DNA of 64,000 bases from a virus. This document shows, piece after piece, positions 10,698-61,742 of the stretch. The DNA is taken from positions 36,908 to 100,907 of IMG/VR virus record IMGVR_UViG_3300033145_000692. The stretch is one strand, 5' to 3'. The translations under genes and the position numbers were made by a program. The first letter of the stretch is position 1, and each line of letters opens with the position of its first letter. The notes beneath the pieces were generated by a model that worked only from the letters and a program-made list of their open reading frames with translations, searched no databases and had not been told where the DNA came from.

Positions 10698-10719
10698 CAG
10701 GTGCCACTATCTGAGTTTC

Positions 10720-14298: not shown

Positions 14299-14800
14299 AC
14301 GTCTACCAGATTTCAGCAGGGGAGACATCAAACGTTTCTGGTCCAAAGTGGATAGGAAGCATAAAAGCGAGTGTTGGGCTTGGAAGGCTTCCGGAGATAT
14401 TGACAAGCGAGGTCAGTTCAGGTATTGTAGAAACGGCAAGTCTCAGTACTTGAAAGCCCCTCGTGTTGCTTGGATGTTATTACGTGGTTATGACCCTTAC
14501 CCTGCTTTGGTTCTCCATAACTGCAACAATCCAAACTGCTGTAACCCACATCACTGTCGGCTCGGTGATGATGCTGACAACCGTAGAGATAGTGAAGAAG
14601 CTGGAACCCATTGTCATGGGACTCAACACGGTATGGCGAAGCTCACAGAAGATGATGTTAAGGAGATTCGACGTGCCCTATCGGAAGGTACAACTGGTGT
14701 GGAGCTTGCTGAGCGTTACCAAGTGTACCCGACCCTTATTAGTAAAATCAAGAATAGACATCTCTGGAAACATATCCCCGAGGAGGTATGCAACAAATGA
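14288..14800 (+). CDS. HNH homing-type endonuclease with HTH
   Basis: The 170-residue product has the HNH core LVLHNCNNPNCCNPHHCRLG near residues 75-93. A C-terminal HTH follows (GVELAERYQVYPTLISKIKN...LWKHI), which gives DNA site preference. It starts at 14288 inside the end of the previous gene with GGGAG upstream. It is inserted between replication genes, as free-standing phage homing endonucleases often are. Relatives in this window are at 49184, 59176, 60422 and 61056. Confidence 0.85.
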   Translation: MALKRLPDFSRGDIKRFWSKVDRKHKSECWAWKASGDIDKRGQFRYCRNGKSQYLKAPRVAWMLLRGYDPYPALVLHNCNNPNCCNPHHCRLGDDADNRRDSEEAGTHCHGTQHGMAKLTEDDVKEIRRALSEGTTGVELAERYQVYPTLISKIKNRHLWKHIPEEVCNK

Positions 14801-16169: not shown

Positions 16170-16680
16170 CATCAGCATCCTACCATGCAAAACCCGTCTG
16201 GAAGGAGTCAAGGGTAGTGACATCATCTTCCTACTATGCCACTGCAAGGAACACCCTTCGTACAAGCAACGTGTAACTGATGACATCTGCAACAAATGTC
16301 ACCTCCGAGTAGGGACCGATCAACCTGAGGATCGAATCATGGTAAGCAAGCCTGAGCCGCCCAGGAAGGGGTCAGGAGAGCCTCCGACGATCACCCCTGA
16401 TGGAACACTCATCTACGTCCAGAGGGGCTGGCAGCCACCACCATGCCCGCCTGGATACCGGAGGCGGTCAAATAACCTGAAGACACCGGATGCCTGGGTT
16501 CTGGAGCCACTGAAGCCTCTATGCGACCACCTCAGACTGGTGATTGGTGAGCAAGGTGCTTGCCTATGTCGCCGCGTCGTACCGACCTGTGTTTACCAGG
16601 GACGATCGTTGAAGGTGACCTCTCAGACCTGCCAGACGTGCCAGACGTGTAAGGAGCCAGGGTATGTCAAGACCCCATAG
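16156..16680 (+). CDS. Cys-rich protein, family copy 1
   Basis: A GTG start at 16156 with GGAG upstream is preferred, overlapping the previous stop; an in-frame ATG at 16111 is deeper in that gene. The product has two parts. Residues about 9-50 carry a Cys/His-rich module (C..C.C..H..C..C). It is followed by TLIYVQRGWQPPPCPPGYRR and a second Cys cluster ending TCQTCQTCK. The central part is clearly paralogous to the next gene. Zinc binding is likely; the function is unknown. Confidence 0.6.
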   Translation: MTNSNISILPCKTRLEGVKGSDIIFLLCHCKEHPSYKQRVTDDICNKCHLRVGTDQPEDRIMVSKPEPPRKGSGEPPTITPDGTLIYVQRGWQPPPCPPGYRRRSNNLKTPDAWVLEPLKPLCDHLRLVIGEQGACLCRRVVPTCVYQGRSLKVTSQTCQTCQTCKEPGYVKTP

Positions 16681-16939
16681 AATGTCTGACGGGACACTTG
16701 TCTATATCAAGAAGGGGTGGGAGCCACCCGCAGTACCGGAAGGGTATCGCCGGAAATCGAACAACCTCAAGAGTCCAGATGCTTGGATTCTGATCCCTGT
16801 GCTGCCGCCATGTGAAACCAGGGAGTCGACGGAGGAGATGGGTAGATGTGGTGCTATCAAGATCATGTACCATTGCCGAGGTGCTAGGATTCACGATCTA
16901 ACAACTTGCCACAAATGCACAAGGAGAAAACATGAGTAA
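16664..16939 (+). CDS. Cys-rich protein, family copy 2
   Basis: The 91-residue product repeats the core of its upstream neighbour: TLVYIKKGWEPPAVPEGYRR then SNNLKSPDAWIL. It ends in a Cys module (CETR...CGAI...CRGA...CHKC). AAGGAG lies 7 bases before ATG 16664. Tandem duplication of a small metal-binding protein is the simplest explanation. Confidence 0.65.
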   Translation: MSRPHRMSDGTLVYIKKGWEPPAVPEGYRRKSNNLKSPDAWILIPVLPPCETRESTEEMGRCGAIKIMYHCRGARIHDLTTCHKCTRRKHE

Positions 16940-17444
16940 TTGCAAAGACTGTCCCGACACACAGATCACCTTTGGGAAGAATCGAACTGTCGAGACCAAC
17001 CATCCTCTCTTCAGGGTCTTTTGCGTGGGTGGGGATGGACTTCCATCATTTGGCGAGTTGAGACTTTCAATACCAGTAGGGTATGATCGAGTTGAGATCG
17101 ACTCAGAAGGTGTGATAGTATACAAAAAAGAAGACCTCGACGACTGGGAGTCGCCAAGGTCCATTGATGGTTTTGAACGTGACTCAGAAAACCCCCATGT
17201 CTTCAGACCTCTATGGGTACCCTGTAAGTCACGGCTGTATAGTGTCATTGTCAGAGAAAAATGTCAGTGTGTTGATGTACTCGCCGAATGTATGCACAAC
17301 CTACCCGAAAAAGAAGTCGATCGGTTTGTCGAGTATGAAGACTGTGAAAAGTGCCCATACCTCCGACCATACCAGAGGTCAAAGCCTGTGAAGAAGACTG
17401 TTAGCAGTCTTCGGGTTCCAAATCTTCCCCGTAGTGCCATGTGA
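16932..17444 (+). CDS. Cys-rich protein, family copy 3
   Basis: The 170-residue product shares the layout of the two previous proteins: a beta-rich centre (LSIPVGYDRVEIDSEGVIVY) and a C-terminal Cys module (PCKSRLY...CQCVDVLAEC...DCEKCPY). An extra CKDCPD sits at the N-terminus. It starts at ATG 16932 after AGGAG. Its last 44 bases overlap the convergent SprT-like gene on the other strand. Confidence 0.65.
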   Translation: MSNCKDCPDTQITFGKNRTVETNHPLFRVFCVGGDGLPSFGELRLSIPVGYDRVEIDSEGVIVYKKEDLDDWESPRSIDGFERDSENPHVFRPLWVPCKSRLYSVIVREKCQCVDVLAECMHNLPEKEVDRFVEYEDCEKCPYLRPYQRSKPVKKTVSSLRVPNLPRSAM

Positions 17445-17727
17445 GATATGTGCGATACAGTCTGGCATAAGCCAAACCCCATTCGGCTCCATGGTCATCA
17501 ACATCGTTACCGTGCCAAGTCAGAGCGTGAGCCCATTCATGTAGGAGAGTATCGAGTCGAAGGTTGAAGCACTGCTTCTTCTGGATTCTGATCTCGAAAC
17601 CGTGATTGACGTATTCGCACTCACCTTGCATTTTAATATCCAACTGACGCACCCGTACTTTTCTCAACGGGTACTCACGCCTTAACCAACACAGGATTTT
17701 TCTCCATTTGGTTTTCTTCGTAAGCAT
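17401..17727 (-). CDS. SprT-like zinc metalloprotein
   Basis: The 108-residue product carries LLHEWAHALTWHG (His63, Glu64, His67) and a likely third ligand His79 in DHGAEWG, the HExxH layout of SprT/Spartan-type and similar gluzincin proteins. GGGGA precedes ATG 17727. It is the last gene of the leftward late block and overlaps tail-to-tail with the rightward Cys-rich gene. A second, larger SprT-like protein is at 61739-62347. Confidence 0.75.
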   Translation of the reverse strand: MLTKKTKWRKILCWLRREYPLRKVRVRQLDIKMQGECEYVNHGFEIRIQKKQCFNLRLDTLLHEWAHALTWHGNDVDDHGAEWGLAYARLYRTYLTWHYGEDLEPEDC

Positions 17728-17742
17728 GATCAGTCCCCTATG

Positions 17743-17778
17743 ACACCCACCTTGGCTCCGTGCCAGGGTGGGTGTTTT
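17743..17778 (+). terminator. rho-independent terminator
   Basis: A 14-bp stem (ACACCCACCTTGGC pairing with GCCAGGGTGGGTGT, one G-T pair) with loop TCCGT is followed on the plus strand by TTTTC. It would stop the rightward operon only after that transcript has crossed the SprT-like gene in antisense. The minus-strand side has no T-run. Confidence 0.75.
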
Positions 17779-17790
17779 CATTTGGTCAGG

Positions 17791-20580
17791 TTACTCATTA
17801 AGAAAGGCAGTTCCAGCACCCATCTTCTCACCTTCGGAATCATACTGGAAGTCGAAGACCTTACCGTCTTCCTCCTCACTATTACCCCATTTAGCGATGT
17901 CACAATCGACTATCAACTTTTCATCATCATCAACCTTCTTGAAGAAGGTTATCAATGGGGCTGACTCCTCAGTTTCACTATCTCTGATCATTGTTGTTCG
18001 GAGGTCAATCTTAAAAACTCCATCAATCGTTGGAATGTCTGAAATGTATTGATCCTCAAGATACCCCGTTCTGAGATCAGGATTGGGATTAGCCTGGGTA
18101 GACAACTCGGCATAGGTGTCTGAGAAGACCACCGCCTGTGCTGCAAAGTCGGCATCAGTTGGAGAGGAGTCTCCCCAGTCAGCGTGACCTATAAAGATAA
18201 CGTTAGGACCACCAACCCATACGACACCATCACCCCAGTTGTCTAGGTCTATAACCCCAATCGGAAGGGCACCATGGGCACCAGCACCAATACCATCGCC
18301 ACCGGCGTACCCTTGTTCCTCCTCCCAGTCTGTCGGAAACTTATCCCCTGTCGACAAAGCCGATGGCCAGAAGTGGAGGTACTCCACCATAGTCCCTGAC
18401 TTGACAGGTGTTAGACAGGTGAAGTCGATCGTATTATCAACCGAGTTGTAACTGGCTGATTCAACAATCGCTTTGATGGAACCTGTTGCAATGTGTTCAC
18501 CACTGAAGTCCAAGGTGATGGTGTCAAACGTTTCCAGGTTAAGCTTATTTAGATAGGACTTGAAACTGACCTTCTTCCATGTATTGGACTTCCGTATCAG
18601 CCAAAACGTCGCCGCCTTCAAGACGATGTCCGGTTGACTGAAACAGTAGAAATCGAACTCCTCAGTCTGGGTTCCATACTTCTTCACATTGTGGCGAAGG
18701 ATGATCTTCTGTTCTTCATTTTCAGCCCAACTCACTCTCCATTTGATAACCATTTTGGTTACCAAATCTTCAGTTGGAGTCAACTCTATTTGAAGACCTT
18801 CCCCGGCATCTACATCACTGTCTGTGATGGTGTTGTCACTGGTGGGGTCCTCTGGGAGGTACTTAATGTAGAATGTCCCATTGGACAGCCACAATGCACA
18901 CCTCGCCTGGAAAGCAATATCCTGAAGAACATCAAGGGTGTTCTTCCGATCGAGGATCGGAAAATTCATCGGGAAGAGATCAAGCTTGGTCCGAATCGCC
19001 GTGAAACTCGTTGAGTCGAATGACAAGTCGGTGAAATTGTTGATGATGTATTCGAGGATATCGACCGTGTGTGGACCTACATCCGACTCGAACGTAACGT
19101 ACAGATCATCTTCCCAACCCTGGTCGGGGATGCTGCTCAAAAGATTAGTCACAATGATCTGAACAGCCGTGATAGGTCCATAATTCACCGTCTCAACCCG
19201 ATAGAGTTCGGATGGTAGGTTCACGAGCTTCCTATCACTCTTGAACTTCTTGTAGGCTTTTACTGACAGCACTGTCCCAGAGATAGTACTGGCGACATAC
19301 GTGAACTCTTCATCATCATAGAGACTGACCTGCGTCCCAGCTTCTTCCCAATGGTGTTGTAGAATATGCTCAGGTTTTGTTGTCTTGTTCTCAGGTGTTT
19401 CCAACTCTGTGATGGTCATTTGACTGCGGACTGATCTGCCCCATGAGGTAAAGCATGGTAGATCAGTCTCAAGCCAGAGATTCTCTGGACCTATCTTCGG
19501 AGTGCATTTTACATGATAGGCAGCTTCCAATCGTTCGTATTCCTGGCTGATCACCAGAGCCTTCTCTTCGTTCTCCTCATGGAGACGATCGGTAACATGA
19601 AAGTTCACACCATCGAAGTACCCAGAAAAAATACCTGAGCCTATCCGAAGTTTGAGACCGATACCCTGTTGAAAATCCTCACCACCTAAGATACGCACAG
19701 GATTGCAACCCAGTGCGTCTCCACCTGCCTGGTCAATAGCCTGTTGGACTGTCAACTCCCTTTGAAGTTGTTGACACTCCTCTGCCAACACCTTCCGATA
19801 AAGATCATAACCTATCTGCGAGTATAAATCATTAGATTGCTGTTCAAGACTTTCGGCTTGGCCCACCTCGCCGCACTGAAGCATACCATCTGCTGCCCTA
19901 TTTAGATGATTCACTTGGAACATCTGTTTAGCGACATTCAAATCCACCTGGGAACCATTACCACCAAGTGGGGAATTCAAGTGGGCATCTTCCCCACTGA
20001 TGATCCCGATCCCACATTGTGTTGTACCAGTGAGTGCCCTATTAAATTGGAGGCAGGGTGAATCTTGTACTGTCCCAAAGATCATTGGCCAAGTTTTTCC
20101 AATCAAATCCTTCGGAATCCAATCGAAATCACCTTCTTCCGTTGAGAAACCTATCTCCTTGTCTTCAAGTTGCGAGATGACTGTGAAGGAGACGCTTCGG
20201 TCTCTCTCACTCCAAGTGATGGGCGAACTGATTTTACCTGCGAAAACGAGGAACTTGTCATCAGTTCCCAACCCTTCAAACCACTGATATACCCTGGCGC
20301 TCCTTTTGTGAATGTCATAGGTGTCGAGGATTGTTTTGATGGTGCCATCTGTGTCATCCAGTACAAGTGATATTTCTTGGGACGAGTTATTCTCACTGAC
20401 ATTGATCACATTGTCCAAGTCACTGACCTCAAGAATCCTGCCAGGAATACTTCCTACATCCCGGTCGGCATACTGAGACCCTTGTGTATCTTGCACCCAG
20501 TCTATTTCTATGATTGTCACAGGCTCGTTCCCGAGCTTGGTAGCGATTTTCGCTAGGGCATTTGCAGACAGATTTCTCAT
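17791..20580 (-). CDS. large tail-tip / tail hub-like protein
   Basis: The 929-residue protein lies at the distal end of the tail block. Its N-terminal 180 residues are beta-rich (SQEISLVLDDTDGTIKTILD, VFAGKISSPITWSERDR). A middle segment DVLQDIAFQARCALWLSNGT resembles the hub domain of tail-tip proteins. The C-terminus is Gly/Asp-rich. Position and features suggest the tail tip protein that joins tube, fibres and host receptor. It overlaps the upstream gene by ATGA. No peptidase or glycosidase motif is evident. Confidence 0.65.
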   Translation of the reverse strand: MRNLSANALAKIATKLGNEPVTIIEIDWVQDTQGSQYADRDVGSIPGRILEVSDLDNVINVSENNSSQEISLVLDDTDGTIKTILDTYDIHKRSARVYQWFEGLGTDDKFLVFAGKISSPITWSERDRSVSFTVISQLEDKEIGFSTEEGDFDWIPKDLIGKTWPMIFGTVQDSPCLQFNRALTGTTQCGIGIISGEDAHLNSPLGGNGSQVDLNVAKQMFQVNHLNRAADGMLQCGEVGQAESLEQQSNDLYSQIGYDLYRKVLAEECQQLQRELTVQQAIDQAGGDALGCNPVRILGGEDFQQGIGLKLRIGSGIFSGYFDGVNFHVTDRLHEENEEKALVISQEYERLEAAYHVKCTPKIGPENLWLETDLPCFTSWGRSVRSQMTITELETPENKTTKPEHILQHHWEEAGTQVSLYDDEEFTYVASTISGTVLSVKAYKKFKSDRKLVNLPSELYRVETVNYGPITAVQIIVTNLLSSIPDQGWEDDLYVTFESDVGPHTVDILEYIINNFTDLSFDSTSFTAIRTKLDLFPMNFPILDRKNTLDVLQDIAFQARCALWLSNGTFYIKYLPEDPTSDNTITDSDVDAGEGLQIELTPTEDLVTKMVIKWRVSWAENEEQKIILRHNVKKYGTQTEEFDFYCFSQPDIVLKAATFWLIRKSNTWKKVSFKSYLNKLNLETFDTITLDFSGEHIATGSIKAIVESASYNSVDNTIDFTCLTPVKSGTMVEYLHFWPSALSTGDKFPTDWEEEQGYAGGDGIGAGAHGALPIGVIDLDNWGDGVVWVGGPNVIFIGHADWGDSSPTDADFAAQAVVFSDTYAELSTQANPNPDLRTGYLEDQYISDIPTIDGVFKIDLRTTMIRDSETEESAPLITFFKKVDDDEKLIVDCDIAKWGNSEEEDGKVFDFQYDSEGEKMGAGTAFLNE

Positions 20581-40895: not shown

Positions 40896-43800
40896 CTATT
40901 GACCTACCCAGGAAAACTTACTCTCCTTGGATGCTTCTACAGTTTCAACAATGGTAACAGTTTTCGTTGCACCTTTTTTAGTCTCGGCAACACTGACTGT
41001 CAACGCATTACCGGCGACCGATGTCGCAGGTGTGAAGGTGGCAGCATGTCCAGCAATTGACGTTGCTGGGGTGATAGTTGCCGTGTGTCCTTCTGTTGAT
41101 GTCGCTGGTGTAACAGTAGCCTCGTTACCAGGAGTCGGTGTAGCTGGTGTAAAAGTGGCATCGTTACCAGGAGTCGGTGTCGCTGGTGTGAAAGTGGCAG
41201 TATTCCCAGGAGTCTCTTCAGCAATAACAGGTGTACCGCCAAGTAGGAGTGTGGAATCGGCAGTCATAAGAGCAACATCAGTTGCAGCATTAGTACCTTG
41301 GAATTCCACAACCCAGTCGGTCCCTGGACCAGCGCCACCTGTAACAGCAACAGTGTCGATGTTGCTAAGCAACTCCAATGCTGTCTTAATATCGGCGGCT
41401 ACATCATCATACGTTATCGCTCCGGTTGGACCTTGACCATCGAAGGTCAATGTGAACGAACCACTGTCGGAGTCATTAGGAATGTTGATTGTCTGTGTCT
41501 CGTTGACAGCAGCCACACCCTTAACAGTTTCAGTGATAGTCACAGTCTTACCGGAAAGAAGTGTACCATCCCCACCCATCTGAACCACTCCGGTATCAGC
41601 GAGGGCACCTTGGAATTCACAAGCCCATTCAGGAGCCGTACCAGTAACTGACATGTCACTGTCACCGATGTTAGTCAAAGCGATTAGGGAAGCCTGTACT
41701 ACACCAGCGGAGGCGTTATATGCAATCGTGCTGGTTGTCTGACCATTATAGGTCAGTGTGAAAGTTCCTCCGGTTACTGTTGCTGGAATCGAGACGGTTT
41801 GAATCTCGTTGTTGCCACCACCACCTGACTGAGTCTCAATGACAGTCACATCGGAGCCAGTTAAAAGGGCTCCATCGGCGGTCATCGCATCAATATCAGC
41901 ACCAGCCAGAAGAGTGGCAAATGTAACAACCCAATCGGTATCCGGACCTGGTCCACCAGAGACAACAACATCCCCGGCACCAATGTTTGATAGAGCTTCC
42001 AGAAGACTATCAAGCGTGCCGAAAGTGTCATCAAACTGAATAGCTCCGGTTGTCTGACCAGCATAGGTCAACGTGAATGAGCCACCTGTCGTATCACTAG
42101 GGATACTGACTGTTTGAACTTCATCAACCGCAACAACACCCGGGACAGTTTCAGTGATAGTCACAGTACGACCAGACAACAGAACACCACTTCCTGTGAT
42201 CGCAGAGATAGGCTGTTGCTTCAAATTGACGCCAAACTCAACTTCCCAAGCAGGGGCAGTACCAGTGACAGTCAAATCGCCAACAGTAATGCCCGCCAGA
42301 GCTTCCAAAGCGTCCTTGACATCCGTAGTCGAAGCGTCAAAAGCGATGGTGCCAGTGGTATTACCATCCCATGTCAACGTGTATGTTCCACCGGTCGCAT
42401 CGGAATCAATTGTGACACTTTGAACTTCATTTGTTCCAGCAGTTCCCGTGACTTCAGAGAGGTCGGTGAAACCAAGAAGTGCATCAAAAGTAAGTGTGTA
42501 AGGACCACCAGCAGCACCAGTGACAACAACATCAGCAGGAGCAATGTTGGACAAAGCCTCCAAAGCTGCCTGAACTGTTGCAGCATCAGCATCATAGGCA
42601 ATCATCGCGGTAGTCTGAGCATCATAGGTGATGTCAAAAGTATCACCAGCAACTGTACTACCCAATGTGATTGTCTGAATTTCGTCTGTCCCAGCATCGC
42701 CAGTGACTTCCGACACATCCGTATTTTCCAGGAGTTGATCAAAGGTTAGCGTCCAAGGACCTCCAGCAGAACCTGTGACAAGGATATCACCAGCGGTGAC
42801 ATTTGACAAACCTTCCAAAGCGGTTTGAACTGTAGCAGCGGCAGCATCATAAGCAATGTCGTCTGTCGTTTGACCATCATAGGTGACATAAAATGAATCA
42901 CCCGCTATAGTCGAAGCCAATGTGATTGTCTGGATTTCATCAGTTCCACCAACCGCCGTAACCTCAGTCTGAGCAGCATATCCAAGAAGCTCACCAAACG
43001 TCAAAGTGTACGGACCACCAGCAGAACCCGTGACAACACAATCATCGGTGTCAATGCCAGAGAAGACTTCCAAAGCCGTCTGGACTGTCCCTGCGGCAGC
43101 ATCATAAGGAATGTCAGTCGTTGTCTCACCACCCCAAGTGATAGCGAACGTATCACCAATGATAGTTCCACTGAGTGTCAGTGTTTGTACTTCATGGGTA
43201 CCCGCAATGGCGGTTACTTGGGCAAGGTCAGTAAAACCAAGAGTTGCATCAAAAGAAAGTGTGTAAGGACCCCCAGCAGACCCTGATACAACAACATCAC
43301 CAGCGGTTATACCACCCAAAACTTCCAAAGCCGCTTCAACTGTTGCAGCAGAAGCATCATAAGGAATAGGAGTGGTCGTAGCAGCAGAATAGGTGATGTC
43401 AAAGGTATCACCAACTTGTGTGTTGGAAAGTGTCAGTGTTTGAACTTCGTCTCTCCCAGCGTCACCAGTGACTTCCGACACATTCGTATTGGCCAAGAGT
43501 TGATCGAAGGTTAGTGTCCAAGGACCACCGGCACCACCAGTAACAATGATGTCACCAGCGGTTACATTCGACAGAGCTACCAAAGCTGCCTGAACTGTAG
43601 CAGCGACGGCATCAAGGGGAATGTCGGTCGTTGTCTGACCATCATAGGTGATATAGAACACATCACCAGCTTGTGTGCTTGTGAGTGCCACAGTCTGGAT
43701 TTCATCAGTACCACCAACACCTGTGATGGCTCCCATGTCTGTGAGATCGAGATTGCCAGCGAAGGTTACAACTACTGGCGTACCAGGGGCGGGACCACCA

Positions 43801-44471
43801 GACAGTACAACATCGCCAGATTCGATACCATCAAGGGCTACCAGAGCCGCAAGGATCGTGGTGTTATTGTCGTCGATATCCAATACAGTGGTCTCCTTGG
43901 CGTCCCAAGTCAACGTATACGTATCCGTAGAAGCATTACCCGAATAGGAAATTGTTTGAATTTCGTCAACACCTACATCAGAGGCAACAATGAGGGACTG
44001 GTCAAGACCTGCAAGATCACCTGTGAACTCGACAGTCCAGGGACCTCCACCAGAACCAGTGATGGTCCCATTACCAGCACCTACTGTCGAAAGACCCTCG
44101 AAGGCGGTTTCGACCGTGGCAGCAGAAGCGTCGTACGCAATAGCCGCTGTCATCTGACCATCGAAGGTCAGCTTGAAAGTCTCATCAGCCACACCACTAT
44201 TGTACGTAACAGTCTGCTGTTCGTTCTGAGAAGGATCAGCTACAACAAAAATCTTGGCTGGGTCGTCAATCGCGATCCACAACTCGTCACCAGCAGACAA
44301 CTCGAAACCTGTGATGGTCGTGACACCAGTCGTCCCAACATAAACGATGTCAGAATTACCTGCCGCCGCCTTGATCATAAGACCATTGGAGAGTGTTCGG
44401 GTAGTACTAATAGCGGCTGCCGCAATTTCGGCACCACCATAACCAGTCTTTATTTCACTAAACGCTGTCAT
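40896..44471 (-). CDS. giant repetitive head fibre/decoration protein
   Basis: The 1191-residue protein begins with a capsid-binding-type domain (SDIVYVGTTGVTTITGFELS). Eleven beta repeats of about 85-100 residues follow, each starting DEIQT or NEVQT and containing LTFDGQTT..IAYDA..ATVQAALEAL and GGPWTLTFD. The end is about six 12-13-residue repeats (ATFTPATPTPGN and variants). It lies between connector and portal genes. One copy of the long repeat occurs in the tail tube paralogue. It is likely a fibre on the capsid that binds host or surfaces. It overlaps the portal stop by ATGA. Confidence 0.72.
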   Translation of the reverse strand: MTAFSEIKTGYGGAEIAAAAISTTRTLSNGLMIKAAAGNSDIVYVGTTGVTTITGFELSAGDELWIAIDDPAKIFVVADPSQNEQQTVTYNSGVADETFKLTFDGQMTAAIAYDASAATVETAFEGLSTVGAGNGTITGSGGGPWTVEFTGDLAGLDQSLIVASDVGVDEIQTISYSGNASTDTYTLTWDAKETTVLDIDDNNTTILAALVALDGIESGDVVLSGGPAPGTPVVVTFAGNLDLTDMGAITGVGGTDEIQTVALTSTQAGDVFYITYDGQTTTDIPLDAVAATVQAALVALSNVTAGDIIVTGGAGGPWTLTFDQLLANTNVSEVTGDAGRDEVQTLTLSNTQVGDTFDITYSAATTTPIPYDASAATVEAALEVLGGITAGDVVVSGSAGGPYTLSFDATLGFTDLAQVTAIAGTHEVQTLTLSGTIIGDTFAITWGGETTTDIPYDAAAGTVQTALEVFSGIDTDDCVVTGSAGGPYTLTFGELLGYAAQTEVTAVGGTDEIQTITLASTIAGDSFYVTYDGQTTDDIAYDAAAATVQTALEGLSNVTAGDILVTGSAGGPWTLTFDQLLENTDVSEVTGDAGTDEIQTITLGSTVAGDTFDITYDAQTTAMIAYDADAATVQAALEALSNIAPADVVVTGAAGGPYTLTFDALLGFTDLSEVTGTAGTNEVQSVTIDSDATGGTYTLTWDGNTTGTIAFDASTTDVKDALEALAGITVGDLTVTGTAPAWEVEFGVNLKQQPISAITGSGVLLSGRTVTITETVPGVVAVDEVQTVSIPSDTTGGSFTLTYAGQTTGAIQFDDTFGTLDSLLEALSNIGAGDVVVSGGPGPDTDWVVTFATLLAGADIDAMTADGALLTGSDVTVIETQSGGGGNNEIQTVSIPATVTGGTFTLTYNGQTTSTIAYNASAGVVQASLIALTNIGDSDMSVTGTAPEWACEFQGALADTGVVQMGGDGTLLSGKTVTITETVKGVAAVNETQTINIPNDSDSGSFTLTFDGQGPTGAITYDDVAADIKTALELLSNIDTVAVTGGAGPGTDWVVEFQGTNAATDVALMTADSTLLLGGTPVIAEETPGNTATFTPATPTPGNDATFTPATPTPGNEATVTPATSTEGHTATITPATSIAGHAATFTPATSVAGNALTVSVAETKKGATKTVTIVETVEASKESKFSWVGQ

Positions 44472-52655: not shown

Positions 52656-52727
52656 CTTTGACTCAAAAGTTTTTTGATCTTAATATGGAATTTCGTGAAC
52701 AATGTTGTACAGAACGTGGCTGAAATG

Positions 52728-52745
52728 CATATATTCAATAGGGAA
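52728..52745 (+). promoter_or_regulatory. phage promoter-like element, copy 2
   Basis: CATATATTCAATAGGGAA is identical to the minus-strand word at 8985-9002. It sits 28 bases before the ATG of the first gene of the rightward accessory operon. The arrangement suggests a start site for the right operon. Confidence 0.6.
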
Positions 52746-52773
52746 TCACTTCATCCTAGTCAAGGAGAACTCA

Positions 52774-53322
52774 ATGCAGCGACCACAACGTAAACGTACA
52801 ATCGCTATGGTACCGCGTTGGTTAGGTCAGAAACCGGCACTTCCAATGATTACTATTCCGGTGTACGTGGTACACTACCGCCAACTGGAGAGGTACATCG
52901 AGAAAATCTACAAGATGGAGGAGTACAGCATCGGAACGGCGACAGGCGCTCGCGGCGACATGACCCCTGAGGTTGATGTGACTGGGGTGCTACCGTCCAT
53001 CCACAACCTGGGTCAGTTGGTAGACAACATCCGCCGTGGACGGCGTACACGCAATCTGAAGATGATAATGGACTTGCTTTGTCAAGATGGGTTCATTCCG
53101 ATCGGCAAGTACACCATTGACATGTCAAAAGTCAAGGAGCCAGTAGAAAAGTACGCCGAGGTGTTGAGCGATTCGCAAGACTGTCTAGACAGACGGTGTG
53201 TCGCACTTAAGGAGGCGAACAAAAACGATGTTGGTTTCATGCGTCAGGTGAAAATCCTCGACGACAAGCTTCTCAAGCATCAAGAGCAACTTGCACAGTT
53301 GGCAGCAAGGAAACTCACATGA
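52774..53322 (+). CDS. conserved phage hypothetical protein, 182 aa
   Basis: AAGGAG precedes ATG 52774. The product (KRTIAMVPRWLGQKPALPMI) has an early basic/hydrophobic segment, RRTRNLKMIMDLLCQDGFIP and a coiled C-terminus. I do not recognise a domain; the family seems widespread in viral metagenomes from memory. It is the first gene of the rightward operon. Confidence 0.7.
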   Translation: MQRPQRKRTIAMVPRWLGQKPALPMITIPVYVVHYRQLERYIEKIYKMEEYSIGTATGARGDMTPEVDVTGVLPSIHNLGQLVDNIRRGRRTRNLKMIMDLLCQDGFIPIGKYTIDMSKVKEPVEKYAEVLSDSQDCLDRRCVALKEANKNDVGFMRQVKILDDKLLKHQEQLAQLAARKLT

Positions 53323-53579
53323 GCAACATCCCCAACGAGTTGAATGAGTTGAATGAATTGGTCGCCATCGTCGGTAAACTTGAACCCGGGGTTGTCAAAA
53401 GGATCACTCCGTCCCTGATTCGTCTGAGAAATAACCTCCAAAAGCGTTACAAAACACTCGATCAGGTTAAGGTTGCCCTTGATCAACTCAGGTTAGATTT
53501 GAAATACATTGTGTTTGATCTTGAAGCAACCAGGCGAGAGCGTGATAAGTTCAAAGCTCTCTGGGAGAACAGACCATGA
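53319..53579 (+). CDS. coiled-coil protein, 86 aa
   Basis: The product is almost entirely heptad-like helix (NELNELNELVAIVGKLEPGV, TRRERDKFKALWENRP). It overlaps the previous stop by ATGA. The function is unknown. Confidence 0.6.
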   Translation: MSNIPNELNELNELVAIVGKLEPGVVKRITPSLIRLRNNLQKRYKTLDQVKVALDQLRLDLKYIVFDLEATRRERDKFKALWENRP

Positions 53580-53953
53580 GCTACACTGACTACGTGCTCG
53601 AACACTTTGGTAAACCATACCACCATGGTGTACCACCTTTCATCAACATTGATCACACCTCGTTTTGTTTCACACACGTCGGTTCAAACTGCGGCGACAC
53701 GGTTGATATGTCGATCACCGTCCATCCAACGACAATCATCCATAGTATCTGGTGGAGAGGTAATGGATGTTGTTTTGCCATGTCTGCCTCATCAATGTTG
53801 GCAAAACATTTTGAAGGGTTATCCTTAGAGGACGTTTACACGTTCTCTAAGGAAGACATGTTGAAACTTTTCAGAGCACCTTGTCCATTGATTCGGGAAG
53901 ACTGTGTCCTCACCGGTTATAATGCACTCAAACAACTCCCAAGGAGTCTGTGA
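53576..53953 (+). CDS. IscU/SufU-like Fe-S cluster scaffold
   Basis: The 125-residue protein matches the NifU/IscU N-terminal fold. Conserved positions are VGSNCGDTVDMSI (Cys39, Asp41), WRGNGCCFAMSASSMLAKH (Cys65/66) and IREDCVLTGYNALK (Cys110). The three ligands and the Asp needed to assemble and release a [2Fe-2S]/[4Fe-4S] cluster are present. Length is typical of SufU (about 140). It lies two genes before the radical SAM gene, a likely client. ATGA overlap links it to the coiled-coil gene. Confidence 0.85.
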   Translation: MSYTDYVLEHFGKPYHHGVPPFINIDHTSFCFTHVGSNCGDTVDMSITVHPTTIIHSIWWRGNGCCFAMSASSMLAKHFEGLSLEDVYTFSKEDMLKLFRAPCPLIREDCVLTGYNALKQLPRSL

Positions 53954-54636
53954 TGTTGAAATTGCCAAACCTATCGAAGTTGAAATTCACCAGTGGAATC
54001 ATCGGAGGACTCATCCTGATTGTCACCATCAGTATGATCGCCGTCAGTATCCGGTATGACTCCGTCATTGAAATACCTGCGGTTGAAGTCCCAGAACCTC
54101 CTGTACCAGTGATTATCCCAGTGATCGAGGTACCTGAGGTACCTGAGGTACCCGAAACTGACCACAACATCATCGTAGAGGTGTCTGTTGAATCTTTGAG
54201 TGGAATGTACCAAGGTGGTGGTCTCCGGGTAGGGAATGTCGTCGTGTCGAGTGTGATGATTTTCATTGGTCGAAGTCAGATTGTAACAGTTGACGGTGTG
54301 GAAGCGGAAATCATCAAACGGGATGACAGGCTCGGTCTGATCGCGCTAAGTAGTGAGTTCAACTCAATGAGTATCAATGATGAGCCCTGTCTACCACCTG
54401 GAGAGTCAGCAACCATCTTTGGCACCAGAAAGTATGATGTTGAGGTCTTCAGATATGTCAAGGATCAAGATTGGATGATTTTGACCGGGGATATCCCAGC
54501 AAACGCCGCAGGATATCCTGTCATGCAGGGCTCCAACGTTATTGGACTCGTGATTGGTCTCAACAGTGCGAATGTCAAACAAGGGATCGCTGCCAGCAAG
54601 CAGGGGCTCGTGAAATTCTTAGGAGAACTAGAATGA
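53953..54636 (+). CDS. membrane-anchored trypsin-fold protein lacking catalytic residues
   Basis: The 227-residue product has an N-terminal membrane helix (GIIGGLILIVTISMIAVSI), a VPEVPEVPE linker and a beta-rich domain laid out like a trypsin-type protease. Where the catalytic His is expected it reads VVVSSVMIF, and the Ser motif GxSGGP is NAAGYPV. The Asp region DRLGLIALSS remains. It is therefore probably a non-catalytic binding or decoy protein. GGAG precedes ATG 53953. Confidence 0.6.
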   Translation: MLKLPNLSKLKFTSGIIGGLILIVTISMIAVSIRYDSVIEIPAVEVPEPPVPVIIPVIEVPEVPEVPETDHNIIVEVSVESLSGMYQGGGLRVGNVVVSSVMIFIGRSQIVTVDGVEAEIIKRDDRLGLIALSSEFNSMSINDEPCLPPGESATIFGTRKYDVEVFRYVKDQDWMILTGDIPANAAGYPVMQGSNVIGLVIGLNSANVKQGIAASKQGLVKFLGELE

Positions 54637-55490
54637 AGACTAACACGTTTAGCATCGTTGTCGGAACGTCAGCATGTAACTCGCACTGCCCGTTCTGCGT
54701 CTCCAAGATGACAGATACGGCTGCTTGCTCATCACCTGACTTCAATGAAGGTGACTTCAACATCGCCTGCCGCATCGTTGACCAGATGCGTAACGGATTG
54801 GTCACGGTGATGTTGACCGGCAAGGGAGAACCGATGCTGTTCCCCAGTCAGATCACCAAGTACATCGACTGCATCAACTTCAGGTTCCCACTCATCGAGT
54901 TGCAAACCAATGGGACTCGCATTGGCGAGCAAATTGAGAACCTCAAGAGATGGAAGGAGTATGGTCTCACACTGGTTTGCATCTCGGTTGTCCACCCGGA
55001 CAAGAAGGAAAACAACGAGATCATGGGAAACCCAGAAGATTTCAATTACTGGGAAGCCGTCAAGACGTTACAGGACATCGGATTGAACGTCAGGTTGAAC
55101 TGCACAATGGTTCGACATGGTGTTGACAATCTTGAAAAGGCTGAGAGGATGGTCCACCTGGCACACCTTCGCCAAGTCAATCAAATAACCTTCCGTGAAG
55201 TTGACTATCCTTCGGTTGGCAGCAGAGACATAACGGTCACCGCCTGGGTGAAAGCCAACAAGCCAACTGGTTTGTCAAATATGCTCCAACACTTTTTGGA
55301 ATTGAAAGGTGCCGCGCGACTACTGGATTTACCCCATGGTGGCATCATTTATGATTGGGATGGGCAAAATGTGGCTATTTCCAACTGTCTGACGGGCACA
55401 ACTGACCCCGATGACATCCGACAAATCATTTTCTACCCGGATGGAAGGGTAGCTTATGACTGGCGATACCAAGGGGCTCGACTACTCTAA
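54633..55490 (+). CDS. radical SAM protein
   Basis: The 285-residue product has the SAM [4Fe-4S] motif TSACNSHCPFC (Cys15, Cys19, Cys22), LTGKGEPML for SAM binding, and LIELQTNGTRI and CTMVRH strands of the partial TIM barrel. It is not QueE-like in its N-terminus. A C-terminal extension rich in Asp and Trp follows (YDWDGQNVAIS). It would cleave SAM to a 5'-deoxyadenosyl radical and modify a nucleotide, RNA base or peptide. The adjacent Fe-S scaffold could supply its cluster. The start overlaps the previous stop. Confidence 0.88.
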   Translation: MKTNTFSIVVGTSACNSHCPFCVSKMTDTAACSSPDFNEGDFNIACRIVDQMRNGLVTVMLTGKGEPMLFPSQITKYIDCINFRFPLIELQTNGTRIGEQIENLKRWKEYGLTLVCISVVHPDKKENNEIMGNPEDFNYWEAVKTLQDIGLNVRLNCTMVRHGVDNLEKAERMVHLAHLRQVNQITFREVDYPSVGSRDITVTAWVKANKPTGLSNMLQHFLELKGAARLLDLPHGGIIYDWDGQNVAISNCLTGTTDPDDIRQIIFYPDGRVAYDWRYQGARLL

Positions 55491-55500
55491 AGGAGAACCG

Positions 55501-55875
55501 ATGACGCAACACAGACCAGACTACAACATTTCATATACCGCCCAGAAGATGACTGAAACGATACCATGTCTTTGCAATAAAAATAGCGAACTGGTCAGCA
55601 TCGAACTGAAGAGGGCGGTCAAGTGCTGGCGACGGCGATACAAGAATCAGCTTGTCACCGACGCTGAGAGGGCGGAAGCAAGGGTGTGGGGCGGAAGTGG
55701 GATACACAAACACTATGAAAGGCTACGGCGGAATAGTAAGAGAGTACAGCGGGCAGCCAATGAGTACAAGGAAAGCCTGGTATTCAACTTCGAGCACGAT
55801 TCCGTTGCACTCATCTGGCAACCAATGCATCAACAACATTGGATATACCTCATAGAACGGAGCGTGACACTATGA
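55501..55875 (+). CDS. hypothetical protein, paralogue of next gene (124 aa)
   Basis: AAAGGAG lies before ATG 55501. The basic, helical N-terminal half (KRAVKCWRRRYKNQLVTDAE) is followed by a C-terminal strand pair (VFNFEHDSVALIWQPM) that recurs in the next gene (MFNVYEDCFVILVWDPV). The function is unknown. Confidence 0.65.
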   Translation: MTQHRPDYNISYTAQKMTETIPCLCNKNSELVSIELKRAVKCWRRRYKNQLVTDAERAEARVWGGSGIHKHYERLRRNSKRVQRAANEYKESLVFNFEHDSVALIWQPMHQQHWIYLIERSVTL

Positions 55876-56372
55876 ACAAGCGAACCTTCTCAGCGAACGC
55901 CAATTTCTACTTTGAGTACCACCATAACATCGACGACGAAGACGATCCACAGCAAGCTGTCGACGTGGATCAAAAGTTCTTCGGAGATGATCCACTGTTC
56001 CTACACGACCATTACGACTACATCCACTGCGAAGTGGTCATCGAAGACATCACCAACATGACAACCCCTGAGGAGAATGACGACATGTCAAATATAGAAC
56101 CGCGTATCGAGCTAGCAATCAGAGATTGGTGGAGCAACCGGTGTGAAAAAGAGGCACTCAAGGTTCAAGAGACAGAGATCGCGGTACAGAAGCGCGAACT
56201 CGTCGAAGAAGCCAAGGTACTCACCAGACGGCTCGAAGGGCTCACCGAAAACATACGTCGGCACCTGATGTTCAACGTGTACGAAGACTGCTTCGTAATT
56301 CTAGTCTGGGACCCAGTGATTGACTCCCACACGATCGAGGTCATGCGGAATGAGTTTGGAGATAAGGCATGA
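55872..56372 (+). CDS. hypothetical protein, paralogue of previous gene (166 aa)
   Basis: It starts at ATG 55872 in an ATGA overlap with GGAG upstream. An acidic N-terminus (NIDDEDDPQQAVDVD) precedes a coiled coil (QKRELVEEAKVLTRRLEGLT) and the shared C-terminal strands. It has no known domain. Confidence 0.65.
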   Translation: MNKRTFSANANFYFEYHHNIDDEDDPQQAVDVDQKFFGDDPLFLHDHYDYIHCEVVIEDITNMTTPEENDDMSNIEPRIELAIRDWWSNRCEKEALKVQETEIAVQKRELVEEAKVLTRRLEGLTENIRRHLMFNVYEDCFVILVWDPVIDSHTIEVMRNEFGDKA

Positions 56373-57016
56373 TCTACTCAAGACAAGAGATCGCCGACTC
56401 ACTCGACTATGCTGTTTTGAAACCTATAGCATCCAACCAAGACATCATTGATGGTGCCGTTTATGCCACAAAACACGATCTTGTTAGTGTATGTGTGGCG
56501 TCAGTGAATGTTTCTATTGCCGCCAGGTACCATCGGAACGTTTCATCGGTGATTGGCTTCCCACATGGTAACTCGCATCCGAAAGCCAAGCTACGTGAGG
56601 CAAAGAGGGCAATCAAGGATGGTGCCAAGGAACTCGACGTGGTCATCAACTACGGAAAGTTTCTTGGTGGTGATCTGAAGGTCATTGAAGATGACCTCGC
56701 AGACCTCTGCGAAATGGCACACGAGGACTACGTGATCGTGAAAGCGATCTTGGAAACCTGCTATTACACCCCGTCGCAGATCAAAACGGCTTGCTGTTGG
56801 TGTGAAAGGGCTAACGTTGACTACGTAAAGACTTCGACGGGATTCGGAGGACCGGCGACTGTTGAGACTGTTAAGCTAATGCTTGAGGTTACCCAACACA
56901 GTCAGGTACGTGTGAAAGCAAGTGGTGGGATTAAGACGTATGATGACGCTGCCAAGTTTTTGGATTTGGGCTGTGGTCGAATAGGCTCCAGCCGATTTGA
57001 GGAGTTGCTGTCATGA
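56369..57016 (+). CDS. deoC: deoxyribose-phosphate aldolase DeoC
   Basis: The 215-residue TIM-barrel protein keeps all catalytic residues: Asp90 in KELDVVINYG, the Schiff-base Lys154 in VDYVKTSTGF and Lys183 in VRVKASGGI. DeoC cleaves 2-deoxyribose-5-phosphate to glyceraldehyde-3-phosphate and acetaldehyde, and runs in reverse too. It would recycle deoxyribose from degraded host DNA. It overlaps the neighbouring genes by ATGA and precedes a deoxyribosyltransferase gene, so the two probably share substrate. Confidence 0.92.
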   Translation: MIYSRQEIADSLDYAVLKPIASNQDIIDGAVYATKHDLVSVCVASVNVSIAARYHRNVSSVIGFPHGNSHPKAKLREAKRAIKDGAKELDVVINYGKFLGGDLKVIEDDLADLCEMAHEDYVIVKAILETCYYTPSQIKTACCWCERANVDYVKTSTGFGGPATVETVKLMLEVTQHSQVRVKASGGIKTYDDAAKFLDLGCGRIGSSRFEELLS

Positions 57017-57558
57017 ACAGACTGAAGAACACGCGAGGCTACCTTGGTGGCGCAATGGATCGAGTCCCAGATGGTGGTGCGACATGGAGACGTAACATTC
57101 GTACCGCACTACGTGGATTGGGAATTGTCTGGCTCGATCCAACCCGCAAACCAATCGACATTGGAGTCGAGAATGATGTGTCAAGGAAGTTGCGGCACGA
57201 GTTCAAGATGGCTGGAGACTATGAGTATGTCACCAAAGAGATGAAACCAATCCGAAATGTCGATTTGCGAATGATCGACGTATGCGACTGGACCATCGTG
57301 AACATTGACGTCGAAGTCCATGCTTGTGGTACCTATGAGGAATTGTTTCTTGCCAACCAACAACGTAAGCCAATCATCATCCATGTCGAACAGGGGAAAA
57401 AAAGTACCCCCGATTGGTTATTGGCTACAGTACCACACCAACTCATCTTTAGTCGGTGGGATGAGGTTACCGGATATCTCTATGACATCGCGAAGGCTCC
57501 CAAAGTTAAGACATACGAGCGATGGAGATTCTTCGACTTCACGGGAGACGGTTCATGA
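57013..57558 (+). CDS. nucleoside 2-deoxyribosyltransferase-like protein
   Basis: The 181-residue product has GYLGGAMDRVPDGGATWRRN near its start and CDWTIVNIDVEVHACGTYEE, where Glu109 sits in the place of the nucleophile of the NDT family. These enzymes move deoxyribose between bases, or hydrolyse the N-glycosidic bond. With DeoC next to it, salvage or editing of deoxynucleosides is likely. The base preference is unknown. Confidence 0.75.
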   Translation: MNRLKNTRGYLGGAMDRVPDGGATWRRNIRTALRGLGIVWLDPTRKPIDIGVENDVSRKLRHEFKMAGDYEYVTKEMKPIRNVDLRMIDVCDWTIVNIDVEVHACGTYEELFLANQQRKPIIIHVEQGKKSTPDWLLATVPHQLIFSRWDEVTGYLYDIAKAPKVKTYERWRFFDFTGDGS

Positions 57559-58600: not shown

Positions 58601-59179
58601 ATGAAGGACATCTATTTCATTGCCGACACTCATCTTGGTCATGAGGCGATCCTGCACCACATGCCAAAACGTGGGGAAGAATTCCGCGACATTGACGAGA
58701 TGGATGCTGGGATCATTGACTCAATCAACTATTATGTCAAGAAGGATGATATCCTATTTCACCTGGGCGACTTCTGCTGGCGGGCGGGACAAGCCGGACA
58801 CTATCGGCAGCGGTTGAACGTCAAAGAGATTCACGTGGCAAGAGGTAACCATGATGCCCCCTCGCTGCGGAAGCACGTGTCCTCACTCGATTGGATGATC
58901 TTCAGGAAGTTCAACTCGAACTTCAGATCAAATCTCCACTTTCACATGCAGCATTTCGCGATGGTATCATGGAGAAAGCAGCAGCATGGGGGGTATGGAC
59001 TATATGGACACAGCCACGGGCTCTTTGAAGACAAGTTGAACACATTTCAACCAGGTCGGAGAGCCATGGACGTTGGTATCGACCACGCTTTCACTCTCAC
59101 CGGAGAGTTCAAACCACTTCACTTAGAGGAATGTCTCTTTTTTATGCCCGACATCATTGAAGGGCGACCAGACCGATGA
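58601..59179 (+). CDS. calcineurin-like metallophosphoesterase
   Basis: The 192-residue product has all motifs in order: IADTHLGH, LFHLGDFCW, VARGNHDAP and LYGHSHG. It closely follows small phage phosphoesterases that act on nucleotides or RNA ends. It is shorter than the 435-residue HTH-linked phosphoesterase and lacks that HTH. A sigma70-type promoter directly precedes it. Confidence 0.85.
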   Translation: MKDIYFIADTHLGHEAILHHMPKRGEEFRDIDEMDAGIIDSINYYVKKDDILFHLGDFCWRAGQAGHYRQRLNVKEIHVARGNHDAPSLRKHVSSLDWMIFRKFNSNFRSNLHFHMQHFAMVSWRKQQHGGYGLYGHSHGLFEDKLNTFQPGRRAMDVGIDHAFTLTGEFKPLHLEECLFFMPDIIEGRPDR

Positions 59180-59793
59180 AACCTATCCCGCAGTTGACTA
59201 AGAGTGACCTTACCCGTTTCTGGGTTAAGGTTGACATGAAAGGTCCTGATGAATGTTGGAAATGGCTTGCGTACAGATGTAAGGATGGTTATGGTCGATT
59301 TGATCTCTGTCAGTCGCCATTTCGAGCACATCGTATCTCTTTTGCCATAGCAAATGGTGACCCTGGTGAGTTGAATGTCAACCACACTTGTGATAACCCA
59401 AGATGTGTCAACCCAGGACATCTCTGGAAAGGCACGATGCAAGACGGCATGACAGACAAGGTCATAAAAAAACGCCAGTCAAGTACGTTAGGTGAACATC
59501 AGATAAGAGAAATCCTTTTGTCAACTGAAACTTGTCAGATTCTCGCGGACAGGCTTGGCGTCAAACATCAAAACATATCGGCGATCAGAAGGGGAGAAAG
59601 ATGGAAACACTTAGGTGGTGGGCGACAGTCATGGGCGTCAAAAACCGGGTCCAGAGGTGTCACGTTCCACAAGGGAGCAGGGAGGTATCGAGCCGATGTT
59701 ACAATCAAAAAGAACCGATACTACCTTGGACTCTTCGATACCATTGAAGAAGCCACCACAGCAATCGCCACCAAGAAGAAGGAACTCAGATGA
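59176..59793 (+). CDS. HNH endonuclease with HTH and AP2 end
   Basis: The 205-residue product has the HNH core LNVNHTCDNPRCVNPGHLWK, an HTH (LADRLGVKHQNISAIRRG) and an AP2-like C-terminus (GVTFHKGAGRYRADVTIKKN). It is a typical free-standing homing endonuclease of phages. It overlaps the phosphoesterase gene (ATGA). Confidence 0.88.
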   Translation: MKPIPQLTKSDLTRFWVKVDMKGPDECWKWLAYRCKDGYGRFDLCQSPFRAHRISFAIANGDPGELNVNHTCDNPRCVNPGHLWKGTMQDGMTDKVIKKRQSSTLGEHQIREILLSTETCQILADRLGVKHQNISAIRRGERWKHLGGGRQSWASKTGSRGVTFHKGAGRYRADVTIKKNRYYLGLFDTIEEATTAIATKKKELR

Positions 59794-60196: not shown

Positions 60197-60441
60197 GATC
60201 CATACTGGAATTTCTACTGGAATTTCTACTGGAATTTCTACATCAGGTACTGTCCCCGCTCATCCTGTTATTTGTCCTCTTCACGATCACTGTGTTATCC
60301 GCACTTGGGATACTGGTCATGGCGAATTTTGCCCCAGTGGGATTTACACTCATTGGTAGCGGGCTCTTGGTCTTCGGAACAATTGTCTTAATCCGATTTC
60401 TGACAAAACTGTGGATGCGATATGAAGATCAAAGAAACTGA
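60193..60441 (+). CDS. membrane protein, 82 aa, with DNA triplication
   Basis: ATG 60193 overlaps the previous stop. The start encodes FLLEFLLEFL through three tandem copies of the 12-bp unit CTGGAATTTCTA. Two membrane helices follow (ILLFVLFTITVLSALGILVM; FTLIGSGLLVFGTIVLIRFL). Confidence 0.6.
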   Translation: MRSILEFLLEFLLEFLHQVLSPLILLFVLFTITVLSALGILVMANFAPVGFTLIGSGLLVFGTIVLIRFLTKLWMRYEDQRN

Positions 60442-61072
60442 CACAATGAAAATACCAATGAAAATACCAATGTTGGACAGAGTCGACCTCGAACGCCTCA
60501 TGGCGTCTGTTGACCAAAGTGAGGATTGCTGGTTCTGGGAGGGGGAACGCAATGGTGATTACCAACCGGTGTTAGAGATAACTGGCGTCAAGTACCACCC
60601 TGGTGACCTACTGTATGTGGATTTGTGTGGACCATTGGAAGATGGCGAGAAGGTAACAAACAAATGCTTCACGGTAGGCTGCATCAACCCAAAACACAAG
60701 GAGGGTGTATGGAGGGCACAGCATGGAAAACTGAGGAAGGGAGATGTTATACGGATTCTTGACTCCGGCAAAACAGTCCGTGAGTTGGCTGAAGAGTTCG
60801 ACGTGTGCCTGGCAACGATCTACAACATCCGGAGTGGCAAGGTCTGGAAAGACATCACTCCACAACACAAGCGAAAACGACCGGTGCCTAAGCCACCACG
60901 ACAGAAGCATATCCGCACTGCGTTCCCGGGGATCACATTTGACCTAGGCACCGGGAAGTACATCGCTAGCTATTACAGGAAGTACATCGGTGAATACGAC
61001 TCACGCGAAGAAGCGGTGGTGATGCGGGTAAAGCACATTGAGGATGGATTCCAATATGGATCTCAGTTTTGA
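60422..61072 (+). CDS. HNH-like endonuclease with altered core
   Basis: The 216-residue product has VTNKCFTVGCINPKHKEGV in the HNH position, with Asn where the first His normally stands. It also has an HTH (RELAEEFDVCLATIYNIRSG) and an AP2 end (GITFDLGTGKYIASYYRKYI). It may have lost nuclease activity. Its first codons contain ATGAAAATACCA twice. It overlaps the membrane gene by 20 bases. Confidence 0.75.
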   Translation: MKIKETDTMKIPMKIPMLDRVDLERLMASVDQSEDCWFWEGERNGDYQPVLEITGVKYHPGDLLYVDLCGPLEDGEKVTNKCFTVGCINPKHKEGVWRAQHGKLRKGDVIRILDSGKTVRELAEEFDVCLATIYNIRSGKVWKDITPQHKRKRPVPKPPRQKHIRTAFPGITFDLGTGKYIASYYRKYIGEYDSREEAVVMRVKHIEDGFQYGSQF

Positions 61073-61742
61073 TTTCATGATGTACCACAAGCCAATACCC
61101 GAACTGACTGAAGAAACCATCAAAAGATTCTGGAGCCACGTTGACATTCGTGGACCGGATGACTGCTGGGAGTATGATACCCTTTTTGCTAATGGTTATG
61201 GAAGATTCTACTTAACAACCAATAATGCGTTCAAGGCTAATCGAATCTCTTATGCAATAGCAAATGGGGACCCGGGAAACCTCCTTGTCTGCCACACATG
61301 TGATACCCCGCGATGTGTGAACCCATCACATCTCTGGGTAGGAACGGACCAGGATAACTGTGACGACAAGACAGACAAGGGGAGGCAGTCGAGAGGTACA
61401 ACTCAACCTTCCTCAAAACTCACAGAAGAACAAGTCAAAGAAATCCTCGCATCGAACGAAACCCTGAAAGTGCTGTCCGCGAGATACAATGTTACTATCG
61501 CCATCATATCACGAATAAGGACAAACAAAGATTGGAAACACATTGAAGGTAAAAGGGGTACACCAGTGAGATCGTCCACAGGTTTCAAAGGAGTCACCCA
61601 ACGTTCTAGTGGTAGGTATATGGCAAAATTCACCTACCAGTACAAGGAACACTACGTCGGAATCTTCGCAACGATACCCGAAGCCACTAAGGCTATCGTT
61701 GCGAAGAAAGCCGAACTCGGCATTGCCTCGACACCAAGCTAG
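61056..61742 (+). CDS. HNH endonuclease with HTH and AP2 end
   Basis: The core LLVCHTCDTPRCVNPSHLWV and the segment KPIPELTEETIKRFWSHVD are close to the gene at 59176 (KPIPQLTKSDLTRFWVKVD). HTH (LSARYNVTIAIISRIRTNKD) and AP2 (GFKGVTQRSSGRYMAKFTYQ) domains follow. The start could be 61056 or 61077. It ends head-on with the SprT-like gene, overlapping by 4 bases. Confidence 0.85.
   Translation: MDLSFDFMMYHKPIPELTEETIKRFWSHVDIRGPDDCWEYDTLFANGYGRFYLTTNNAFKANRISYAIANGDPGNLLVCHTCDTPRCVNPSHLWVGTDQDNCDDKTDKGRQSRGTTQPSSKLTEEQVKEILASNETLKVLSARYNVTIAIISRIRTNKDWKHIEGKRGTPVRSSTGFKGVTQRSSGRYMAKFTYQYKEHYVGIFATIPEATKAIVAKKAELGIASTPS

Follow-up and report, generated by a model that had tools for sequence, protein, structure and literature searches.

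A phage SufS and a probable SufU-type partner encoded with a radical SAM enzyme of a family linked to NAD gene clusters

Introduction

To our knowledge, the Fe-S assembly genes of phages have usually been reported as lone scaffold or carrier genes whose client is not known. Marine phage genomes carry genes for IscU and A-type carriers, sometimes together with many radical SAM (rSAM) genes (PMC5332604), and NifU, NifS and SufE have been found in viromes (PMC7785012, PMC8940887). The original prediction for the DNA studied here, that phages rarely carry such a scaffold, is softened by the marine IscU genes. Bacterial SufS enzymes include SufU-dependent and SufE-dependent ones. His354 of Mycobacterium tuberculosis SufS, with an equivalent in B. 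subtilis, swaps in as a zinc ligand and is essential in SufU-dependent SufS, and its position is occupied by Tyr in the SufE-dependent SufS of Escherichia coli (PMC10216065). As for coenzyme metabolism, a survey of phage NAD+ genes does not mention a radical SAM enzyme (PMC9503650).

In the phage described below, a putative SufS-SufU-type pair would supply Fe-S clusters, and an rSAM enzyme would be a client acting in pyridine-nucleotide metabolism. The probability of this whole explanation is estimated at about 0.42.

The phage and its lineage

The window, i.e., the whole 64,000-nucleotide stretch analysed, covers bases 36908-100907 of a virus record of 100,907 bp. The 100.9-kb contig encodes terminase, portal, major head and tape-measure proteins and thus belongs to a tailed phage. 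The terminase shows no more than ~27% identity to any from the listed database phages, and no DNA match was obtained for 7.5 kb of the structural region; by these comparisons the phage belongs to a new lineage. A syntenic sister phage, G014 (106,101 bp), has core proteins that are ~60% identical.

Several other genes were recorded. A DNA helicase of 1010 aa (window 4771-7803, minus strand) has an apparent intein insertion, the sister protein being 650 aa long. A tail protein of 1191 aa (window 40896-44471, minus strand) matches tail-tube/sheath PHROGs about ten times over, and its counterpart in the sister phage measures 401 aa. Similar HNH-endonuclease-like proteins are scattered at window positions 14150-14800, 59176-59793, 60422-61072 and 61038-61742. 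A thymidylate-synthase-like protein, possibly a base hydroxymethylase (PF00303, E 6e-9), is encoded on the minus strand at contig 10002-10892 (L008:3-893); blastp against G014 gave no match. Scanning viral contigs with one protein at a time (P0001, P0002 or P0004) gave no matches.

The gene row around the U-protein and the radical SAM enzyme

The genes of interest follow one another on the plus strand (window coordinates):

52702..53322, plus strand, F62, a conserved protein without assigned function, upstream of the U-protein; no Pfam or PHROG match
53319..53579, plus strand, small protein of 86 aa; homologue (47%) elsewhere in sister phage G014
53576..53953, plus strand, IscU/SufU-like (NifU_N) protein of 125 aa, here called the U-protein; Pfam NifU_N, phrog_8429, ligand residues
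53953..54636, plus strand, membrane-anchored protein between U-protein and rSAM; N-terminal membrane segment
54633..55490, plus strand, radical SAM enzyme of 285 aa, CxxxCPFCVSKM family; PF04055, CxxxCxxC
55501..55875, plus strand, small protein without assigned function
55872..56372, plus strand, small protein without assigned function
56369..57016, plus strand, DeoC, deoxyribose-phosphate aldolase; TIGR00126, 177.6 bits against a cut-off of 117.3
57013..57558, plus strand, nucleoside 2-deoxyribosyltransferase-like (NDT-like) protein; also after DeoC in G014

Predicted from sequence, the gene identities relevant here are regarded as practically certain. Stop-start overlaps (TGATG/ATGA) join the U-protein gene, the intervening gene and the rSAM gene, the intervening gene being translationally coupled on both sides; therefore, the three form one co-directional unit. 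The rSAM start was taken as ATG 54633, not TTG 54471 of the mechanical list of open reading frames. The intervening product had been read as a dead protease, which could not be confirmed. It has no Pfam match, aligns with trypsin-like phage proteases at an hhalign probability of 0.3%, and its structure model reaches a pLDDT of 42. A distant homologue (26%) occupies the equivalent position of a third contig.

The original prediction had called for co-occurrence in related phages, and the same order was indeed found in the window phage, G014 and G028. In G014, the row reads U-protein, one small gene, rSAM, DeoC (directly after rSAM) and NDT; in G028, a 13-kb fragment, it reads U-protein, membrane protein and rSAM, with an F62 homologue again upstream of the U-protein. 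Identities between G014 and the window phage are 47% for SufS (see below), 38% for the U-protein, 50% for rSAM, 52% for DeoC and 57% for the NDT-like protein. As the U-protein and rSAM genes lie close together in related phage contigs, their pairing is not due to chance.

Identity of the U-protein

An IscU/SufU-like protein with three Cys ligands and the Asp had been predicted, and this description holds. The U-protein scores above the gathering cut-off of Pfam NifU_N (E 2.4e-14, 54 bits, cut-off 22) and has the complete ligand set of the IscU-SufU superfamily (C39, D41, C65 and C110). It also matches phrog_8429, "NifU-like Fe-S cluster assembly protein" (E 1.8e-14). A profile built from two phage U-proteins recovered only the sister phage again.

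Regarding the type of scaffold, the NifU_N family stands, but a classical IscU does not. TIGR01999 gave 36.2 of 192.4 bits, below the cut-off, and IscU proper was rejected. The His beside the last Cys, an IscU feature, is replaced by D, Q or S in all three phage U-proteins, and LPPVK, the HscA-binding chaperone motif, is absent from all three. SufU proper was rejected too, as the SufU insertion is missing and TIGR01994 gave 37.1 of 92.5 bits, likewise below the cut-off. The RxxC motif and the SufU interface residues (C, G, D, G-C) are kept, and RxxC together with the absence of the IscU His agrees with SufU. Because the interface residues are kept, the IscU His and LPPVK are missing and the phage SufS has the zinc-swap His, the U-protein most likely works like SufU, though it falls outside the curated SufU definition. 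The alternative is a true IscU-like cluster scaffold that would use host IscS/HscBA instead of acting as a SufU-type sulfurtransferase. Compared with the PDB by a three-member profile, the protein matches IscU best (9vwk, E 1e-16), and the missing SufU insertion is consistent with such a scaffold. Against this, none of the three phage proteins has the IscU His or LPPVK, and the SufU-type His of the phage SufS points the other way; we consider a true scaffold improbable, at something like one chance in four.

A SufS-type desulfurase elsewhere in the genome

Gene-calling on the whole 100.9-kb record revealed a desulfurase outside the window:

contig 19386..20564, ~16 kb upstream of the window, minus strand, SufS-type cysteine desulfurase of 392 aa; TIGR01979, PF00266

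The match to TIGR01979 has an E of 1.7e-114 at 382.8 of 475.1 bits, i.e., under the curated cut-off, and that to PF00266 an E of 1.3e-113. The protein is ~40% identical to bacterial SufS/CsdA proteins. The active-site residues K200 and C345 and the RGGTHCA motif are present, as in type II cysteine desulfurases, and the protein is classed as a diverged SufS by its sequence. The zinc-ligand-swapping His corresponds to H326 in the phage SufS (HxHD) and to the HPHD motif in the G014 SufS. Among SufS proteins of viral contigs, HxHD occurs in all six with a NifU_N gene on the contig and in 1 of the 23 without (Fisher p 1.5e-5), four of the six NifU_N-bearing cases being bacterium-like contigs. The SufS and U-protein genes are located 70 kb apart on opposite strands and do not form one operon; the two proteins are probably a cognate pair.

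The SufS gene has further neighbours. Just upstream, at contig 14627-19021 (window -22280 to -17886, minus strand), lies the gene for an adenosylcobalamin-type ribonucleotide reductase of 1464 aa, in which two inteins seem to be inserted and which has no match in G014. In G014, the SufS gene is adjoined by one for a 256-aa protein with CPIGCGEC, a CxxxCxxC motif (L059:7806-8576, minus strand). This protein has no Pfam or NCBIfam matches and may be another radical SAM or Fe-S protein that goes with the supply genes.

Distribution of the supply genes and the question of the client

A self-sufficient cluster supply had been proposed for this phage. The additional SufS-type desulfurase speaks for it; against it, NifU_N matches are missing from 26 of the 28 other viral contigs that have the rSAM gene, contigs of 100-300 kb included. 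Among the 28 viral rSAM contigs, NifU_N was found only in G014 and G028, and a SufS-type desulfurase only in G014. One further contig (G053) encodes a desulfurase of another type, in which the HxHD and RxGxHCA motifs are missing. Since most rSAM viruses are without SufS and U-protein, the rSAM enzyme can be loaded by the host, and the phage-encoded sulfur/Fe-S supply is accessory to it, not obligatory. Co-occurrence of SufS and U-protein among rSAM contigs of at least 60 kb has a p of 0.02, not corrected for relatedness. Many "phage" records with IscU or SufS proved bacterium-like, with whole isc or suf operons, and were left out of the phage evidence; three records labelled as phage (CAKLQF020000009, MW495066, OR846595) appear to be bacterial chromosome with such operons.

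A rival reading has the pair serve host or phage generally, by Fe-S refill or thiolation under stress, its adjacency to rSAM being incidental. The many viruses with rSAM but no pair would fit such a role, as would the position of SufS, far off and near the ribonucleotide reductase gene, and the reports of phage IscU, A-type carriers, NifU and SufE as general auxiliary genes (PMC5332604, PMC8940887, PMC7785012). The translationally coupled unit of U-protein and rSAM, with its order kept in three contigs, argues against it, and we rate incidental adjacency as rather unlikely. That the rSAM enzyme is a client of the SufS-U pair stands at even odds.

Family and fold of the radical SAM enzyme

An rSAM protein with an intact CxxxCxxC motif had been placed two genes after the scaffold, and it is there: C15-x3-C19-x2-C22 is accompanied by a PF04055 match (E 3.6e-13, 50.5 bits, cut-off 29.5) and a partial TIM barrel, the features of the radical SAM superfamily. 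In an alignment of 20 members, CPxCVSKM and a C-terminal DIRQxIF..DG...YDW block are common to all, and the phage protein is, on these motifs, a member of an unnamed family with the signature "CPFCVSKM". The family covers 28 viral contigs and 20 MAG contigs, mostly DPANN/CPR; scanning 84,980 species genomes gave 20 relatives, nearly all from DPANN archaea and CPR bacteria.

The structure-based search that had been suggested for this protein was run. The model (pLDDT 85, pTM 0.87) matches the folds of MoaA, SkfB and viperin, with Foldseek TMq values of 0.69 to MoaA and 0.66 to viperin, and sequence comparison gives the same matches. Membership in the MoaA or viperin families was rejected, the NCBIfam cut-offs being missed (42.8 of 284 bits and 30.5 of 180, respectively). 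A SPASM/Twitch enzyme was rejected as well: there is a single C-terminal Cys (C252), absent in the viral contig L075, and there are no conserved auxiliary-cluster cysteines. In a tree, the window rSAM falls in a viral clade (100/99) nested in a clade with NAD-cluster members (97/93).

NAD gene context

In cellular genomes, the rSAM gene has as neighbours genes for nicotinate phosphoribosyltransferase, nicotinamidase, NAD synthetase, NadD/NadM/NadR, an NAD-kinase-like protein, NrtR, PnuC and, once, NadA; examples were confirmed with Pfam/NCBIfam. A HisC-like PLP protein often directly adjoins it. NAD genes were found near rSAM in 10 of 14 cellular genomes and near none of 29 other rSAM loci in the same genomes (a 30th control locus, the rSAM itself, was left out), the control loci spanning ~3.5 kb and the rSAM loci 12.9 kb. 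The queries were partly drawn from the test loci; among loci that supplied no query, NAD genes occur in 5/9, against 0/29 controls. Because the cellular members sit in NAD biosynthesis clusters, the enzyme most likely acts in pyridine-nucleotide metabolism. This NAD role is given slightly less than an even chance.

Among viruses, L075 has the rSAM gene flanked by genes for nicotinate phosphoribosyltransferase and nicotinamidase, and its nicotinamidase shares 53% identity with a nanoarchaeal protein. This is the only one of 20 distinct viral rSAM loci with NAD neighbours. Neither the window phage nor G014 yielded any further NAD gene, and the NAD assignment of the phage rSAM is thus based on homology at ~40-45% identity. 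A search of the window phage for the cellular PLP partner likewise gave no match. Genomes with the rSAM gene, which are drafts, have a NadA match in 6/14 cases and NadC above cut-off in 3/14. As for rSAM substituting for NadA or NadC, some rSAM genomes have both. A literature search found no description of this rSAM in NAD gene clusters. In Collierbacteria and relatives (L103, L105, L107, L116), an MttB-type methyltransferase gene stands next to rSAM, canonical NAD genes are absent and the PLP protein is mostly present; one thought is demethylation of an N-methylated pyridine.

The original prediction had the enzyme modify tRNA, a DNA base or a peptide, which is not favoured by the NAD/nicotinate context of the family in cells. 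In a rival reading of this kind, DeoC, the NDT-like protein and the thymidylate-synthase-like protein would be the partners of rSAM in making a hypermodified nucleotide or DNA base. DeoC and NDT-like genes follow rSAM in two phages, the thymidylate-synthase-like gene is present in the window phage, genes of the uracil-DNA-glycosylase superfamily lie beside or near rSAM in three other viral groups (L086, L080, L090; one is fused to a polymerase-A-type exonuclease), and QueE-like phrog_2076 gives a weak match (E 1.8e-6). Yet the nearest cellular relatives are found in NAD clusters and not among base-modification genes, DeoC and NDT are absent beside rSAM in most viruses, and the thymidylate-synthase-like gene has no blastp counterpart in G014. 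Base modification is held to be quite improbable.

Proposed mechanism and significance

In the preferred explanation, the PLP enzyme SufS would transfer the sulfur of cysteine to its own Cys345. The U-protein would dock through its own metal site and His326 of SufS, accept the persulfide on Cys39 and pass sulfur or cluster to host SufBCD or straight to phage Fe-S enzymes. Among candidate clients, the rSAM enzyme two genes downstream would rank first; it would need one [4Fe-4S] cluster. This single-cluster, MoaA/viperin-shaped enzyme would most likely carry out a radical step in nicotinate/NAD metabolism, and its activity would keep up the coenzyme supply during infection. More broadly, it is tentatively proposed that the CVSKM family is a hitherto undescribed NAD (nicotinate) enzyme of DPANN archaea, CPR bacteria and large phages, to which some phages add a dedicated SufS-SufU-type pair supplying Fe-S clusters.

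The locus hints at a phage supporting an Fe-S enzyme of coenzyme metabolism during infection. Two syntenic phages combine a desulfurase and a U-protein with a cluster-dependent enzyme encoded near the latter, so that client loading becomes directly testable. Furthermore, the rSAM family offers an entry to the unexplained NAD metabolism of DPANN/CPR organisms, most of whose genomes in the present set are without NadA/NadC matches, and to NAD as a resource contested by phages and hosts. In the literature searched, a phage SufS and SufU-type pair with the zinc-swap His and an NAD-linked rSAM family in phages look new.

Comparison with known systems

MoaA, viperin and SPASM-type enzymes share the fold and the CxxxCxxC site with the phage rSAM. 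The latter, in contrast, is far under their family cut-offs, has no auxiliary cluster, carries its own CVSKM and DIRQxIF..DG...YDW signatures and belongs to a family with an NAD-gene context in cells. Phages with NAD+ reconstitution or salvage (NARP1, NadV/NadM phages) have genes that keep NAD+ up. The rSAM phage L075 likewise has nicotinate phosphoribosyltransferase and nicotinamidase, whereas the window phage is without any other detected NAD gene.

With the bacterial SufS-SufU systems of B. subtilis and M. tuberculosis (Rv1464-Rv1465), the phage pair shares the C/D/C/C ligands and RxxC of the U-protein and the type II desulfurase class with the HxHD and RxGxHCA motifs of SufS; the same zinc-swap chemistry would be expected. 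It differs in being phage-borne, in having its two genes 70 kb apart, in the apparent lack of SufBCD genes in the phage as far as noticed, and in a U-protein that has no SufU insertion and scores under the curated SufU cut-off.

Finally, the IscU and A-type carrier genes of phages (marine EVGs, PMC5332604; phrog_8429; C48C1) are also phage NifU_N genes, and their genomes sometimes include radical SAM genes. The IscU genes of this set group with gammaproteobacterial homologues, and the C48C1 protein shares 75% identity with Acinetobacter IscU, with no desulfurase annotated nearby. The U-protein of the window, by contrast, represents a diverged phage lineage, and its phage has a desulfurase of its own.
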